From Candidatus Hydrogenedentota bacterium (GTDB lineage Bacteria > Hydrogenedentota > Hydrogenedentia > Hydrogenedentales > CAITNO01), in contig JAAYJI010000181.1 of the NCBI GenBank assembly GCA_012523015.1, positions 1-39,984 of the forward strand: a stretch of 39,984 bases of DNA. Direction: 5' to 3'. Both the position numbers and the translations under genes were made by a program. How positions within the stretch are numbered: the stretch's first letter is position 1; every line of letters begins with the position of its first letter. The notes beneath the pieces are model-generated. The model saw nothing but the letters and a program-made list of their open reading frames with translations, made no database searches and was not told the origin of the DNA. Positions 13,937 to 39,984 of this stretch are shown piece by piece.

Positions 13937-14044
13937 AGGATGCTCCTTTCAGGGACATTCACCCCGTCGGCACGATTTCGCCGAAAGCGAAATCACCCAA
14001 TCATTAAGACTTCAAGGAGAAATGAAATGTTTCACCGACACTGT

Positions 14045-14081
14045 GATAAAAAAAAGACAGGCAAACAAATCGCCTGTCTTT
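14045..14081 (-). terminator. strong intrinsic terminator after the micro-peptide genes
   Basis: AAAGACAGGC (14053-14062) and GCCTGTCTTT (14072-14081) form a perfect 10-bp stem with a 9-nt loop. On the minus strand the stem runs into eight consecutive T, then ATCAC. It lies about 40 bp after the stop codon of the second micro-peptide, so the peptide transcript should end here, before the M28 gene. Confidence 0.85.
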
Positions 14082-14119
14082 CACTAATCTACAGCATCAC
14101 AACCATAAAGGATTGTTAA

Positions 14120-14233
14120 TTATCCGCCAAACAATACGTCGGACAGAAAATCAAACATACCGTTGAAAAGAAAATCTAAAAAGAAGGTGATTGTCCGAGT
14201 CACCAACAATTGAAACAGTACCGCGAAATCCAT
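14120..14233 (-). CDS. 37-aa hydrophobic peptide (micro-gene 2 of 2)
   Basis: ATG at 14233 is preceded by AAAGGA with a 6-nt gap, one of the better ribosome sites in the window. The product begins MDFAVLFQLLVTR and ends DFLSDVLFGG. It is rich in Phe and Leu with a single Arg and several Asp, so it could span or lie on a membrane. It resembles the neighbouring 36-aa peptide: both have LFxxL near the start, then T, FF and FL at matching spacing, so they are probably paralogues. A hairpin (14250-14272) precedes it and a strong terminator follows. No known family is recognised. Type I toxins, leader-like peptides and small membrane regulators have this general character. Confidence 0.6.
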   Translation of the reverse strand: MDFAVLFQLLVTRTITFFLDFLFNGMFDFLSDVLFGG

Positions 14234-14249
14234 AAAAAGTCCTTTCTTT

Positions 14250-14272
14250 CAAGCCTGTCTTTCATAGGCTTG
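14250..14272 (-). promoter_or_regulatory. hairpin just upstream of the 37-aa peptide gene
   Basis: CAAGCCT and AGGCTTG form a perfect 7-bp stem with a 9-nt loop that ends about 8 nt before the AAAGGA site. Its minus-strand sequence contains TGAAAGACAGGC, the same 12-mer that begins the 5' arm of the terminator at 14045-14081. This leaf could therefore pair with the terminator's 3' arm instead of its own partner. Confidence 0.45.
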
Positions 14273-14353
14273 TGTCGAGAAAATCAATCGTAACAGTCGA
14301 CCTCATTCCAAATACACTTCTGCATACTGCGCGACAGCAGCAATAGCTTCTGA

Positions 14354-14464
14354 CTATTCCGCCGACGGAGGAAAGACCCAGCCCAAAACCAAATCCGTTA
14401 AAAATCCGGTAAAGAACTGGAAAGTTACCCTGAACAACTCTTTGAACAGATTGAACAACAGCAT
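14354..14464 (-). CDS. 36-aa hydrophobic peptide (micro-gene 1 of 2)
   Basis: ATG at 14464 follows AAGGAG with a 7-nt gap. The frame is open further upstream (to 14608), but no site supports a longer product. The peptide begins MLLFNLFKELFR and ends VLGWVFPPSAE. It has Lys, Glu and Arg near the N-terminus, then a long Phe/Leu/Val stretch of about 18 residues that could form one membrane helix. It shares spacing of LFxxL, T, FF and FL with the 37-aa peptide 120 bp downstream. Both lie in an AT-rich island between the M28 peptidase and the EEP membrane protein. Function unknown. Confidence 0.6.
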   Translation of the reverse strand: MLLFNLFKELFRVTFQFFTGFLTDLVLGWVFPPSAE

Positions 14465-14837
14465 AGACTTACTCCTTCTTGTCATTCCAACGTTGAAATA
14501 CCAACCAACAACTATTGAAAGCACCCGCTTAAAATACAACAACAAGTGCGTGCTTGTTACGAAGCCTTCTTTTAAAAACAAGTCATTTATGGATTGTCGG
14601 GGATACAACTGTTTTTATATGCATGGGGCTTCCACAAAATACAGGCTGTTTGGGTCTATGCTATTTTTATTGAAACAGCTCACGCGAAAGCTGGTGCATG
14701 TAAAAAATATTTCCCGCAAAAGTATCCTTAAAAAACACTTTTCTCCCAAATTAGATGATCTTAAATATCAACCTAGAGAATAACATAATTTGTTAGGACG
14801 ATTAAAAATAATTTTTAAACAAAAAAATGCCGGTAAG
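14465..14837. other. AT-rich non-coding stretch upstream of the micro-peptide genes
   Basis: About 370 bp, visibly richer in A and T than the flanking genes. It should hold the promoter of the micro-peptide transcript on the minus strand, but I cannot single out good -35/-10 boxes. A small inverted repeat (ACAAG/CTTGT) lies near 14540-14560. A 113-aa plus-strand frame across it starts with TTG, lacks a ribosome site and is antisense to a micro-peptide; I do not call it. Confidence 0.5.
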
Positions 14838-16865
14838 TCAAGGCGCTTCAGATCCCTTCAGTTGCAGCTGTGCCCAGTGAAGGGGATGATCGCTTCGAGA
14901 CTGGGGAGGCAATACATAATCGTTTTCCAGCACCGTGAACGGAGCACTGAGAAAGATGTGGTCAATCGCGTCATCGATAGCAATGCCGCGCTTCATCCAC
15001 AAAGGATTTGAACCGGAGCGGGCGGCAACCTGCGAAAAAAAATCCATCAATTGCCCATAGAAGGGATCGCGCTCCGTGAAATTAAAATCGCCCATGGCAA
15101 TGGCATATTGATAACGAGAAGCTTCTTTCACAAGGGAGTCCAGATGGGCATTTTTAATTTCCGCATCGCCGGCAGGATGATTGGAAAAGACGGCAATCGG
15201 CTGACCTGACAGTTCTATTTCCGCCGCCGCCGTACCCACCTCATCAGGATTGCTGAAAGAAAAGAGAACACGCGGATTCTCTAAGGGATATCGAGACAGC
15301 AGCGCTGTCCCAAAAGTACCGGAAATGCTGCCGGGCCCGTAAAAGGCGTGATAGCCCAAGGATTGCGAAAAATAGTATACAGCATCTACCAAGGCGCCCG
15401 AAACACGAGCAGTATCACATTCCTGTAAAGCAATAACATCAGCATTAAGGCAGCGCAAGAGTGAGCGTTGCCCCAGGTAATCCCGAACGCCGGCAGTGTT
15501 GGAACCTTGTTGCATATTGTAGGAAACAACGCGGAGTGTGTCCCCTCTTGAAGCTTCCATGACCGGCCTCTGCGTGTGCCACAACGAAGCCAGCCACAAC
15601 AGCAAAAGGATAAGGGACAGGCTCCCCATAAGGCGTGTTCCACGACGAGGAAGCGCCGCCTTATCCGGAGCCTTGACAAAGCCAAAGATCATCAAGAAAA
15701 CACCTAAAATAAAAAAAGGCAGATAGAATTGATTTCTCAGCACCTGTCCGCCCGGAACATAGCCCCACACATTGGTGAGGATCAACAAAATAGAAATGGA
15801 CACCAAGAACAACGCGGCCACGATCAAAGGCGCTACAGCGCAGCGGGGATGTGCGAAAGGACGAACTGAAAAGTAAGCGCCGCTCTTACGCAGATTCAAT
15901 AGGATCACAGGCGACATGAGCAGTGCCATCCACACACCGCTTTTACCGGGTAAAACGCCGCTGCTCAAAACGATGGGCACGGAAAGGGCTGTTTCAGGAA
16001 AGGGCGGCCGACCCGCATAAAGGGCAACCACCAAAAGGGTCGTAAAAATAAAATTGCCTACAGGCAAGCTATAACGGCCGGGGTTCGGGATCCTTTGTCC
16101 TACGAGCATAAACAGGACAATCGGAACAACTACAGCTCCGGAGAAAAGCGTGCCCGTAAAAAAAGGACGGCTGTATCCATGCCAGCCATTTACAGCCAAG
16201 GGCGAAGAAAGAAAAAGGAAGGCAATGCCAAGGGCGGCGAAGAAAGAACACATCGGCACAAATGCTGCGCCGGATCCCATGTCTGCATCTTCCACCGCTT
16301 CTTGTTCTTGCAAAGGCGCGTTCAGATCATGCCACGAAAGGAGCAGCGCCATGCCGGTTAACACGGCGCCCAAGGACAGCGCCATGCCGTCCATAGAAAT
16401 ATCAAGCGACAATCCCCACGAACGCAACACTACAGACAGAAGCACTGCAACGCCCAAGGCCTTTCCAAAATCGGGGGATAAGCGCGCATAAGGGCGGCTC
16501 AGCAAACACGCCAGCAACACCAAAAAAAGAGACACCCCAACACCGCCGAAAAGAATACCGCCCATAGTGCCCAACAAGGGCGCGCAGAAGCGGCACAGGA
16601 GGAACAATAGCACGGCGGCACGAAATAATCGGGGCGTAGACTGCGGCGGAAGCCATAGCAGGGGCAGCGCAACCAAAAAGAGCAATAATCCCAGCAGCTC
16701 CATACCCGGCGCCAAGGCGGTCAAACTAATCCTGTAGATACTTTCCATCCACACGACGAAAAGCTGGAAAAAGAAAAGTAGGATCATGCCCAACCACAGG
16801 CTGCGGACAGGATCATAGCCGGACAATCTTTCTTCATTTTTTTCCGGCAATGTCGTATGCTTCAT
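14838..16865 (-). CDS. multi-pass membrane protein with C-terminal endonuclease/exonuclease/phosphatase (EEP) domain
   Basis: About 675 aa. The first ~420 residues contain roughly a dozen hydrophobic helices. The C-terminal ~240 residues form an EEP domain like DNase I, sphingomyelinase and Mg2+-dependent phosphatases: RVVSYNMQQG, VIALQECD (metal Glu), NHPAGDAE, AMGDFNFT (catalytic Asp/Asn), DDAIDHIFLS and RSDHPLHWAQL (terminal Asp-His). All expected catalytic motifs are present. The EEP domain probably cleaves a phosphodiester in a lipid, sugar or nucleic acid outside the cytoplasm. ATG 16865 is preferred because AAGGA lies 10 nt upstream; an ATG at 16889 is possible. It follows the DUF4091 gene closely, so they may be co-transcribed. 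Confidence 0.82.
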   Translation of the reverse strand: MKHTTLPEKNEERLSGYDPVRSLWLGMILLFFFQLFVVWMESIYRISLTALAPGMELLGLLLFLVALPLLWLPPQSTPRLFRAAVLLFLLCRFCAPLLGTMGGILFGGVGVSLFLVLLACLLSRPYARLSPDFGKALGVAVLLSVVLRSWGLSLDISMDGMALSLGAVLTGMALLLSWHDLNAPLQEQEAVEDADMGSGAAFVPMCSFFAALGIAFLFLSSPLAVNGWHGYSRPFFTGTLFSGAVVVPIVLFMLVGQRIPNPGRYSLPVGNFIFTTLLVVALYAGRPPFPETALSVPIVLSSGVLPGKSGVWMALLMSPVILLNLRKSGAYFSVRPFAHPRCAVAPLIVAALFLVSISILLILTNVWGYVPGGQVLRNQFYLPFFILGVFLMIFGFVKAPDKAALPRRGTRLMGSLSLILLLLWLASLWHTQRPVMEASRGDTLRVVSYNMQQGSNTAGVRDYLGQRSLLRCLNADVIALQECDTARVSGALVDAVYYFSQSLGYHAFYGPGSISGTFGTALLSRYPLENPRVLFSFSNPDEVGTAAAEIELSGQPIAVFSNHPAGDAEIKNAHLDSLVKEASRYQYAIAMGDFNFTERDPFYGQLMDFFSQVAARSGSNPLWMKRGIAIDDAIDHIFLSAPFTVLENDYVLPPQSRSDHPLHWAQLQLKGSEAP

Positions 16866-37402: not shown

Positions 37403-37500
37403 TTTGAAACCGAATTTCCCATAAGATACACTGTGTAGACTGGCTAAGCTTCGTTGTGACTCTGTAGATCTCATTGCGGCAGGCACCGATAGGCCTGCGC
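37403..37500 (+). repeat. dispersed 98-bp repeat, copy A
   Basis: Aligns without gaps to 39691-39788 in the same orientation; I count 72 identical positions of 98. The best block is ATAAGATACACTGTG. Conserved patches AGATC, TTGCGGCAG and CCGA-AGGCC follow. Read on the minus strand both copies keep the same open frame (GLSV..AA ... HSVSY ... FK), which may be left over from a coding ancestor. Confidence 0.7.
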
Positions 37501-37684: not shown

Positions 37685-38530
37685 ATGAATAAGAGACAAC
37701 CAATCTATAAACGACAGCGATTTCTTTTGTCGTTTATTCGTCAGTTAAACGCAGGAGTATCCTTAGCTGATTTACAAAAATTAGTGTTTCTGCAATTGAA
37801 GAGAAAATCAGAAGCTTACTACGACTTTTTGCCGCATGCACACGGTCCTCATTCTTTTCAGCTTGCAGAGGATGTGGATATTCTCTTAAAGAATGGATTT
37901 ATTACGATTGAAGACACAAATATTAAAGCAACCGGGTATTCCCTTAAGGAAAATTCATCGAGCGGTAACGTCCTTATCCGCGAACTATATAATGTATATC
38001 CTTATGGCGCCATGAAGAATGAAGGGGCTGACCGCCTTTTCCACAAGGAAAAAATATGTCATTTAAATAATGAAAAACAAAAAAATACGGCTTCCGAAGA
38101 AAGGTTATTTACAATCGGCTATGAGGGTAAAAGCATAGAGCAATTTATTAAACAGTTAATCCAAGAGGGGATTAAGTTACTATGTGATGTCCGTAAAAAT
38201 CCGCTTAGCCGAAAATTTGGATTTTCAAAGACCAGACTTACCCATATAACAGAAAGTGTCGGGATTAAATATGTGCATGTTCCCGCTCTCGGCATCGAAA
38301 CCACAAAGCGCCGTGTATTGAAGACTTCCGAGGACTATATATCGCTCTTTAATGATTACGCCAAGACACTGCCGAAGTTGGAAGCTTATCTTAATCAAGT
38401 TTATTATTTGCTTCATTCTTACACGCGCATTGCCTTGATGTGCTTCGAAAAAGATCCTGCGCAATGCCATAGGCATGTTGTAAGAGATTATCTAATTAAA
38501 ACGCACAAGGTCGGGAGTACAGACTTATAG
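37685..38530 (+). CDS. DUF488 protein with N-terminal DUF4065/Panacea-like domain
   Basis: 281 aa; ATG 37685 follows AGGAGG with 8 nt spacing. Residues about 10-85 (RFLLSFIRQLNAGVSLADLQKLVFLQ ... HGPHSFQLAEDVDILLKNGFITIED) have the layout of SocA/DUF4065 (Panacea) domains, found in antitoxins and phage proteins. Residues about 141-275 are DUF488: FTIGYEGKSIEQFIKQL, LLCDVRKNPLSRKFGFSKTRL, YVHVPALGI, and ALMCFEKDPAQCHRHVV, with Cys/Cys-His-Arg near the end. DUF488 has no firmly known activity. The gene is AT-rich compared with the chromosome to its left. The next gene starts 2 nt after the stop, so the two should act together. The N-terminal assignment is by pattern and less sure than DUF488. 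Confidence 0.82.
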   Translation: MNKRQPIYKRQRFLLSFIRQLNAGVSLADLQKLVFLQLKRKSEAYYDFLPHAHGPHSFQLAEDVDILLKNGFITIEDTNIKATGYSLKENSSSGNVLIRELYNVYPYGAMKNEGADRLFHKEKICHLNNEKQKNTASEERLFTIGYEGKSIEQFIKQLIQEGIKLLCDVRKNPLSRKFGFSKTRLTHITESVGIKYVHVPALGIETTKRRVLKTSEDYISLFNDYAKTLPKLEAYLNQVYYLLHSYTRIALMCFEKDPAQCHRHVVRDYLIKTHKVGSTDL

Positions 38531-38532
38531 GT

Positions 38533-39369
38533 ATGGAAAAAAAACGAATTTACATCGTCGCAAAAACTTATCCGACAATTTCAAAGAAATATGCGGAGCT
38601 CGTTTGTACGGCAGGAATCTTGGAGGACGGCTCTTGGATTCGGCTTTATCCAATTCCATTCAATACCTTGGCTGAAGAACAAAAATATCCAAAATATACA
38701 TGGATTAATGTGAAGATAACACGCAATACAGCAGACAATCGTTTTGAATCCTATAGACCGGATCTTTCGACGATCGACGTTGAAGAAAAATCAAAAAAAA
38801 CGAACTGGGACGTGAGACGCAGGATTATCTTTAAAAACAAAAAAATTTATACCAATTTTGATGAGTTGTTGTCTAAGAAAAACAAAGACGGTACCTCCCT
38901 TGCTGTGTTCAAACCCACAAAGATAAAAAACTTCATCACAGCGTCAACAACAAATGAATGGGATAGTGACAAACTCGAACATCTAGAGATGGAGTCAAAA
39001 CAGTTAGATCTGTTTTTGACGCCTGAGGAGATAAAAAAACAGTTTAGAGTTGTTCCAAAAGTACCCTATAAATTCTATTATCAATTCGAAGATGAAACAG
39101 GCAAGCTACATAAATTAATGATCTTGGACTGGGAAATCGGTATGCTCTACATTAAGTGTCTTAATATAGCAAAGGGTGACAAAGAGACGGCAATATTAAA
39201 AGTGAAAGAAAAATATTATGATACCTTCATTAAAAATGACCTTCACTTCTTTCTAGGCACTTCAAGAGCCCATCACGCTAGAGCGCCTAATCCCTTTATG
39301 ATTATTGGAGTGTTTTACCCACCGCTGACAACACCGGATCCACAGATGAATTTATTTGATATGGAGTAA
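38533..39369 (+). CDS. unknown protein with two sliding-clamp-binding-type motifs, partner of DUF488 gene
   Basis: 278 aa, start ATG 38533, 2 nt after the DUF488 stop. No family can be named with confidence. The N-terminal half (MEKKRIYIVAKTYPTISKKYAELVCTAGIL; GSWIRLYPIPF; YTWINVKITR) reads as small beta-barrel strands, perhaps OB-like, with a second beta-rich part at about 170-265 (KFYYQFEDETGKLHKLMILDWEIGMLYIKCL; HFFLGT; IIGVFYPP). QLDLF at 157-161 is the exact bacterial beta-clamp-binding pentapeptide, and QMNLF at 271-275, four residues from the C-terminus, is a good variant. No nuclease or ATPase motif is visible. Strongly AT-rich. Role unknown; a DNA-linked defence or repair function is an inference. 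Confidence 0.75.
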   Translation: MEKKRIYIVAKTYPTISKKYAELVCTAGILEDGSWIRLYPIPFNTLAEEQKYPKYTWINVKITRNTADNRFESYRPDLSTIDVEEKSKKTNWDVRRRIIFKNKKIYTNFDELLSKKNKDGTSLAVFKPTKIKNFITASTTNEWDSDKLEHLEMESKQLDLFLTPEEIKKQFRVVPKVPYKFYYQFEDETGKLHKLMILDWEIGMLYIKCLNIAKGDKETAILKVKEKYYDTFIKNDLHFFLGTSRAHHARAPNPFMIIGVFYPPLTTPDPQMNLFDME

Positions 39370-39400
39370 TACAAAAGAAAGACGCCACGGCGGATTGAAT

Positions 39401-39471
39401 TTCCGGTGTTTAAATACTTGGCATTACTTCTTGGTTGCTTCTTGGTTGCTTCTAGTTGCAAGGTTGCAATA
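39401..39471 (+). repeat. ~71-bp direct repeat, copy 1, with nested 10-11-mers
   Basis: Begins TTCCGGTGTTTAA and ends AAGGTTGCAATA. Inside, CTTCTTGGTTG occurs twice and CTTCTAGTTG once in tandem. It lies just after the cassette's second gene. A second copy starts 18 bp later. Confidence 0.7.
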
Positions 39472-39488
39472 ACAGCATCTTATTGAAG

Positions 39489-39558
39489 TTTCAGTGTTTA
39501 AGTGATCGGCGTTGCTTCTTGGTTGCTTCTAGTTGCTTCTAGTTGCAAGGTTGCAATA
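39489..39558 (+). repeat. ~70-bp direct repeat, copy 2
   Basis: Aligns with 39401-39471 along its full length: same TGTTTAA start and the same AGTTGCAAGGTTGCAATA end. Here the nested units are one CTTCTTGGTTG and two CTTCTAGTTG, so the sub-repeats vary between copies. No gene is seen in it. Confidence 0.7.
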
Positions 39559-39690: not shown

Positions 39691-39788
39691 CTTGAAACGG
39701 ATTCTCCGATAAGATACACTGTGAGAACCGGGAAAGGGGCGCGGTGCCCCTATAGATCCCCTTGCGGCAGCTACCGACAGGCCGGCGT
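39691..39788 (+). repeat. dispersed 98-bp repeat, copy B
   Basis: Direct-orientation match to 37403-37500. This copy has an extra small hairpin, GGGGC-GCGGT-GCCCC, in the diverged middle. Together the two copies bracket the AT-rich two-gene cassette and the 70-bp repeats. Confidence 0.7.
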
Positions 39789-39933: not shown

Positions 39934-39984
39934 GCATGGGCGCTTGTGGAGCCGAGCGTAGCGAGGCGGAACAAGCGCCCATGC
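39934..39984. repeat. 14-bp perfect inverted repeat ending at the window edge
   Basis: GCATGGGCGCTTGT (39934-39947) is repeated in inverted form as ACAAGCGCCCATGC (39971-39984), with a 23-bp GC-rich spacer (GGAGCCGAGCGTAGCGAGGC...). The right arm ends on the last base given, so the element may continue. No U-run is visible, so it may be a REP-like element, a mobile-element end or a terminator. Confidence 0.6.

Follow-up and report, generated by a model that had tools for sequence, protein, structure and literature searches.

The window analysed here, a 39,984-nt stretch of contig JAAYJI010000181.1 from a Candidatus Hydrogenedentota bacterium, carries two closely spaced genes on the + strand near its end. 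Gene A (37685–38530, 281 aa) and gene B (38533–39369, 278 aa) are separated by 2 nt between the A stop codon and the B ATG, and an AGGAGG sequence lies 8 nt ahead of the A start. The pair lies upstream of a glycosidase-like gene on the opposite strand, at a distance of 414 nt. Their GC content (38.5% for A, 36.8% for B, 37.7% for the cassette) compares with 51.5% in the remainder of the window, and the cassette falls 6.7 SD under the mean of same-sized windows. The AT-rich two-gene cassette with 2-nt spacing outlined in the initial annotation of this DNA thus stands, in both coordinates and composition.

The cassette is flanked by a direct repeat of ~97 nt, unassigned to a strand, whose left (37404–37500) and right (39692–39787) copies are 75% identical. 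A search of the genome found no copy beyond these two, and the repeat was unmatched at the congener loci examined. Between B and the right-hand copy lies a tandem duplication (39394–39558) of a ~78-nt unit with 88-nt spacing, 86% identical and GGTTGCTTCT-rich, which corresponds to the repeat-rich tail described earlier. At the contig's extreme end is an imperfect inverted repeat (39934–39984, 75% over 51 nt), and another AT-rich stretch of the window (14001–15000, 40% GC) has a mid-part without an obvious long ORF.

A catalogued pair acquired by horizontal transfer

Both proteins match, nearly end to end, the two models of the phage-defence candidate PDC-M19 in PADLOC-DB 2.0: A matches PDC-M19A (PDLC04505; E = 6.3e-86, residues 8–275) and B matches PDC-M19B (PDLC04508; E = 3e-103, residues 1–267). 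Since the window holds the same two proteins in the same adjacency, with no difference in membership, the pair is already catalogued and is not new. What we describe here are the clamp motifs, the predicted tandem OB fold and the archaeal PIP-box of PDC-M19B. B also matches phrog_25907, a phage family of unknown function (E = 1.9e-57), so the earlier view of it as a partner without a nameable family has to be dropped; no Pfam or NCBIfam family matched it. To our knowledge, neither a settled function for DUF488 nor a mechanism for PDC-M19 has been established. Candidates of the PDC type are nominated through guilt by embedding in defence loci and are mostly unvalidated (PMC12988326). In the literature searched, M19 was not mentioned and no anti-phage experiment with it was found.

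The distribution of B is sporadic, at 2–7% of genomes per phylum. Within the window's phylum, 4 of 68 genomes have it, with none of three congeners among them; in three other phyla, the counts are 21 of 297, 11 of 399 and 15 of 392. B of the window belongs to a group (SH-aLRT 99) shared with Bacillota, viral contigs and a rumen genome of Planctomycetota, apart from its phylum-mates; constraining it with two of these was weakly rejected (AU p = 0.037), and with all three strongly rejected (p = 3e-7). In an empty-site comparison, two congeners have a sugar kinase, not the cassette, upstream of the orthologous glycosidase, a partial comparison in that the sugar kinase lies on other contigs in the window's genome. 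From composition, tree and sporadic distribution, we conclude that the cassette was recently and horizontally acquired, in agreement with the gene transfer originally proposed.

B is carried by mobile elements more widely, occurring on 23 plasmids, in Gordonia temperate phages, where it adjoins the immunity repressor, and in ~50 IMG/VR matches. A gammaproteobacterial version is present on Pseudomonas plasmid NZ_CP087161. The DUF488 gene of Gordonia phage Nymphadora (gp42; L045:8822–9274) is publicly annotated as 'HipA toxin', a name that looks wrong because its profile matches are to PDC-M19A/DUF488-type models.

Conserved and exchangeable parts of A

Within A, a full-length DUF488 domain (PF04343) spans residues 150–270 (38132–38494, + strand; E = 2.5e-27, 96.3 bits against a curated cut-off of 22.2), which bears out the description of A as a DUF488 protein with an extra N-terminal domain. 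A also passes, marginally, the cut-off of PF22751 ('active DUF488-N3'; E = 2.4e-6, 28.3 bits against 27), and all 26 aligned relatives match this family at E up to 1. A PDB sequence search with A alone gave no match. In the AF2 model of A (mean pLDDT 87), the DUF488 domain matched by fold the Sulfolobus PTP-fold phosphatase 2i6i (prob 0.99, TMt 0.49).

Across the 80 DUF488 partners compared, D168, R170, G203, C253, E255, C261, H262 and R263 are invariant. A putative active-site loop, C253-x-E255 ... C261-H262-R263 (38441–38473, + strand), contains the last five of these residues and is preceded in the domain by D168 and R170; its catalytic role is suggested by the fold. We predict the DUF488 domain of A to be a Rossmann-like enzyme of PTP/rhodanese type that depends on cysteine and would carry out a cysteine-based reaction.

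The N-terminal domain of A (~residues 8–95; 37706–37969, + strand) shares the signature LQK...F...Y.F.P...G.YS with SocA/Panacea and the DarG C-terminal domain, though profile and fold matches to both are weak. A DarG profile covers residues 17–81 (E = 0.01–0.05), and the DarG C-terminal domain 7yk3 is matched by profile (E = 0.07) and by fold (prob 0.96, E = 0.0076). SocA_Panacea (PF13274) is matched by 5 of the 26 relatives (best E = 0.0025), whereas A of the window itself falls below the Pfam model and no toxin partner was identified for it. In other lineages, this position is occupied by ParB_N and HTH domains (Saccharolobus, Haloquadratum), by an XRE-HTH (Streptomyces) or by nothing. The DUF4065 (SocA/Panacea) look noted at the outset thus survives as a weak likeness, seen in relatives and in the DarG matches, but not as a match of the window's own protein, and the Panacea-like domain is not a fixed component of the system.

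With plain DUF488 proteins (PF04343 and PF22751), A has in common the full domain and its conserved residues; it differs from them in its fused N-terminal domain and its tie to B. The Saccharolobus and Haloquadratum partners of B share the ParB_N-HTH-DUF488 architecture of archaeal ParB-CTPase-DUF488 fusions (PMC12704722), unlike A of the window, which is without ParB. An archaeal ParB-fold DUF488-HTH protein, which may or may not be a B partner, binds CTP (PMC12704722).

Predicted OB folds and clamp motifs of B

The AF2 model of B (38533–39369, + strand), built with 39 relatives in the alignment, is of high confidence (pLDDT 91.2, pTM 0.87) and points to a tandem OB-fold protein, predicted to bind DNA. 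Neither a PDB sequence search with B alone nor a search with a B profile found a relative of known structure. The best Foldseek matches in the PDB were an RPA-AROD OB complex, a HIN domain on dsDNA, CST, Teb1 and a telomere end-binding protein, and among viral models baculovirus LEF-3, at TM-scores low enough (0.2–0.4) that the OB assignment is a topology call. The predicted architecture resembles that of the tandem-OB family DuOB (PF22557); the window's B does not match this family, and three B relatives match it weakly, all below the cut-off (best E = 0.0019; best relative 18.7 bits against 27).

The low-confidence segments of the model are the linker between the OB domains (~residues 150–170) and the tail (~residues 270–278), and both hold a clamp-like motif: QLDLF at residues 157–161 in the linker (39001–39015, + strand; pLDDT ~70) and QMNLF at residues 271–275 in the tail (39343–39357, + strand; pLDDT ~56). 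The beta-clamp consensus is QL[SD]LF. Among 59 B representatives sharing <70% identity, a QxxLF-type motif is present in the linker of 52 and at the C-terminus of 41, with both in 39; the corresponding rates per same-sized window elsewhere in the same proteins are 0.45% and 0.29%. The clamp motif first remarked on in B is therefore better founded than originally stated, with two conserved sites in place of one. The flanks of the motifs vary freely (entropy ~3 bits), and position +2 favours D, N or S, like the beta-clamp consensus. As a mixed alignment of B proved too diverse to be scanned for patterns, we worked with alignments of subclades; registering an alignment on the motif inflates the conservation of the motif columns, and an independent alignment still gives Q157 at 90% or more. 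In a fresh sample from two further phyla (Bacillota/Planctomycetota-type), which played no part in forming the pairing idea below, the linker motif was kept in 14 of 17 full-length B copies. The QxxLF pattern also occurs in 36 of the 80 DUF488 partners, mostly as a helix segment (e.g. QKLLF). At two sites in flexible segments, B has the conserved QxxL(F) peptide that characterizes beta-clamp binders; from these short motifs, we infer that it docks on the sliding clamp.

In two related Sulfolobales plasmid homologues, the linker site reads QATLDQYI or QATLEQYI, a strict PCNA PIP-box, and the tail reads NVKLDDFI or NVSFDKFI. Strict PIP matches occur only twice in 70 bacterial sequences. The two haloarchaeal copies fit this pattern poorly: B of Natronococcus ends in QPGLDSF, an incomplete PIP, and that of Haloquadratum contains QAKLF, a bacterial-type match. 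Three viral scans yielded no archaeal homologues, so the PIP-box comes from the two related plasmids, and we treat an archaeal switch of the docking peptide as a lead. A further archaeal match lies in Methanosarcina acetivorans.

The same Sulfolobales plasmids carry a small ORF directly after B (L046:8852–9358 and L051:8864–9355) that by eye looks like a PD-(D/E)XK nuclease (EID ... FExK), and its product could be a third component there.

Pairing, genomic context and possible function

To count pairs, we gathered B homologues from genomes, plasmids, phages and viral contigs, retaining non-redundant copies of at least 150 aa. A DUF488 gene adjoins B in 77 of 79 such loci across bacteria, archaea, plasmids and prophages, the exceptions both being archaeal (Sulfolobus pSOG2 and Natronococcus), and it adjoins every full-length B of the fresh sample. 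The trees of B and DUF488 are correlated (r = 0.70, against 0.12 for the best of 999 permutations), and the two proteins co-evolve. The tight pairing suggested by the initial annotation was thus recovered well beyond the window, where rare co-occurrence would have spoken against it. The arrangement of the genes varies: an A with a long N-terminus precedes B in an operon in 33 cases, and a stand-alone DUF488 gene is convergent to B in 33–34 of the 77, frequently such that the 3′ ends overlap. An operon with 2-nt spacing is therefore not general, the genes being convergent in about half of the loci.

Several loci depart from a simple pair. Tandem DUF488 gene pairs occur in the window's order, in L016, L020, L024 and L025 and in similar loci, and the tandem pair of L016 matches another PADLOC candidate, PDC-M45B/C. 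In four Bacteroidota-type loci (L063, L074, L075 and L007), B is broken by in-frame stops or a frameshift, beside an A that is intact where it was read (L063, L074 and L007); these interruptions may stem from gene decay, from B being costly or from errors of assembly.

The neighbours of the pair include defence and mobile-element genes. On one viral contig (L106:2742–9519), A and B lie between the mod and res genes of a Type III restriction-modification (RM) system, in the order mod-A-B-res, with 4-nt overlaps or a 12-nt gap; elsewhere the pair adjoins a Type IIG RM gene (L006) or HsdR (L089). Among 136 neighbour ORFs from 37 loci, counted without a matched control, PADLOC matches were to Type I–III RM, Gabija, DISARM and BREX models, and PHROGs matches were to integrases and repressors. 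Together with the 23 plasmids and the Gordonia phages, these loci fit the restriction and phage contexts in which such a pair was first expected. Many copies also belong to ordinary backbones of plasmids, with genes such as those for metal resistance and sugar transport. Because location inside defence loci was PADLOC's criterion for choosing PDC families, this context is not independent evidence; it supports a defence role and does not prove it.

The two conserved clamp-docking tags of B suggest that the pair acts on replicating DNA, and it is the genomic context from which the defence reading is drawn. With middling confidence, we favour a mobile module of two proteins, of PDC-M19 type, which works on replicating DNA and most likely serves in defence against phages or plasmids. 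In such a module, B would bind the sliding clamp of the host by means of one or two QxxLF peptides (a PIP-box in Sulfolobales), while its two predicted OB folds would hold DNA, probably single-stranded. Docking and DNA holding by B could place the DUF488 enzyme of A at the fork, or on new DNA or nucleotides, and the exchangeable N-terminal domain of A (Panacea/DarG-like, ParB, XRE-HTH or none) may add a layer of targeting or control. A more specific proposal, which we put forward tentatively, is a widespread, fork-patrolling immune system in which a tandem-OB adaptor on the clamp would bring the DUF488 cysteine enzyme to foreign DNA that has just been copied, the docking peptide having changed from beta-clamp to PCNA type on the move into archaea.

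Clamp tethering and OB folds are typical of repair and replication proteins, and under the main rival explanation mobile elements would carry the same anatomy as cargo for repair or maintenance coupled to replication; the enzyme would repair or edit new DNA or the pool of nucleotides on behalf of the element or its host and would have no part in immunity. The plasmid neighbours of the pair, which include SSB, RadC, Ku, UvrD, RecT and helicases, are in keeping with cargo of this kind. However, its sporadic presence in each phylum, its insertion within an RM operon and its location in prophage immunity regions all argue against such a role, and we consider maintenance cargo rather unlikely.

A toxin-antitoxin system, in which A would combine a Panacea-type antitoxin with an enzyme and the toxin would be either B or the DUF488 domain, fits poorly and seems improbable. 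Panacea and the DarG C-terminal domain, which the N-terminus of A weakly resembles, are both antitoxin modules; A and B form an operon in the window, and the four loci with an interrupted B beside A would suit a toxic B. Yet about half of the systems consist of a stand-alone DUF488 protein lacking the Panacea-like domain and encoded convergently to B, ParB or HTH domains replace that domain elsewhere, and an antitoxin would have no need of the invariant DUF488 active site.

An accessory role in RM or DNA modification, in which the pair might, for instance, change or recognize modified bases on behalf of an adjacent RM system, also seems improbable: the loci with Type I, IIG and III genes, and DNA methyltransferases in Haloquadratum, would accord with this role, but RM genes are absent next to the pair in the majority of loci, including that of the window. 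Given how sporadically the pair is distributed and the mobile settings in which it is found, we reject an ordinary metabolic enzyme pair in a housekeeping setting, which had been named at the start as the alternative to a defence or maintenance module.

The anatomy described here makes both DUF488 and PDC-M19 testable, through clamp docking by two named peptides and the role of the invariant cysteines. If the defence reading is true, PDC-M19 would tie defence to the replication machinery. Furthermore, its occurrence in both bacteria and archaea, where the docking peptide may have changed to match, would if true constitute a natural experiment in clamp recognition.
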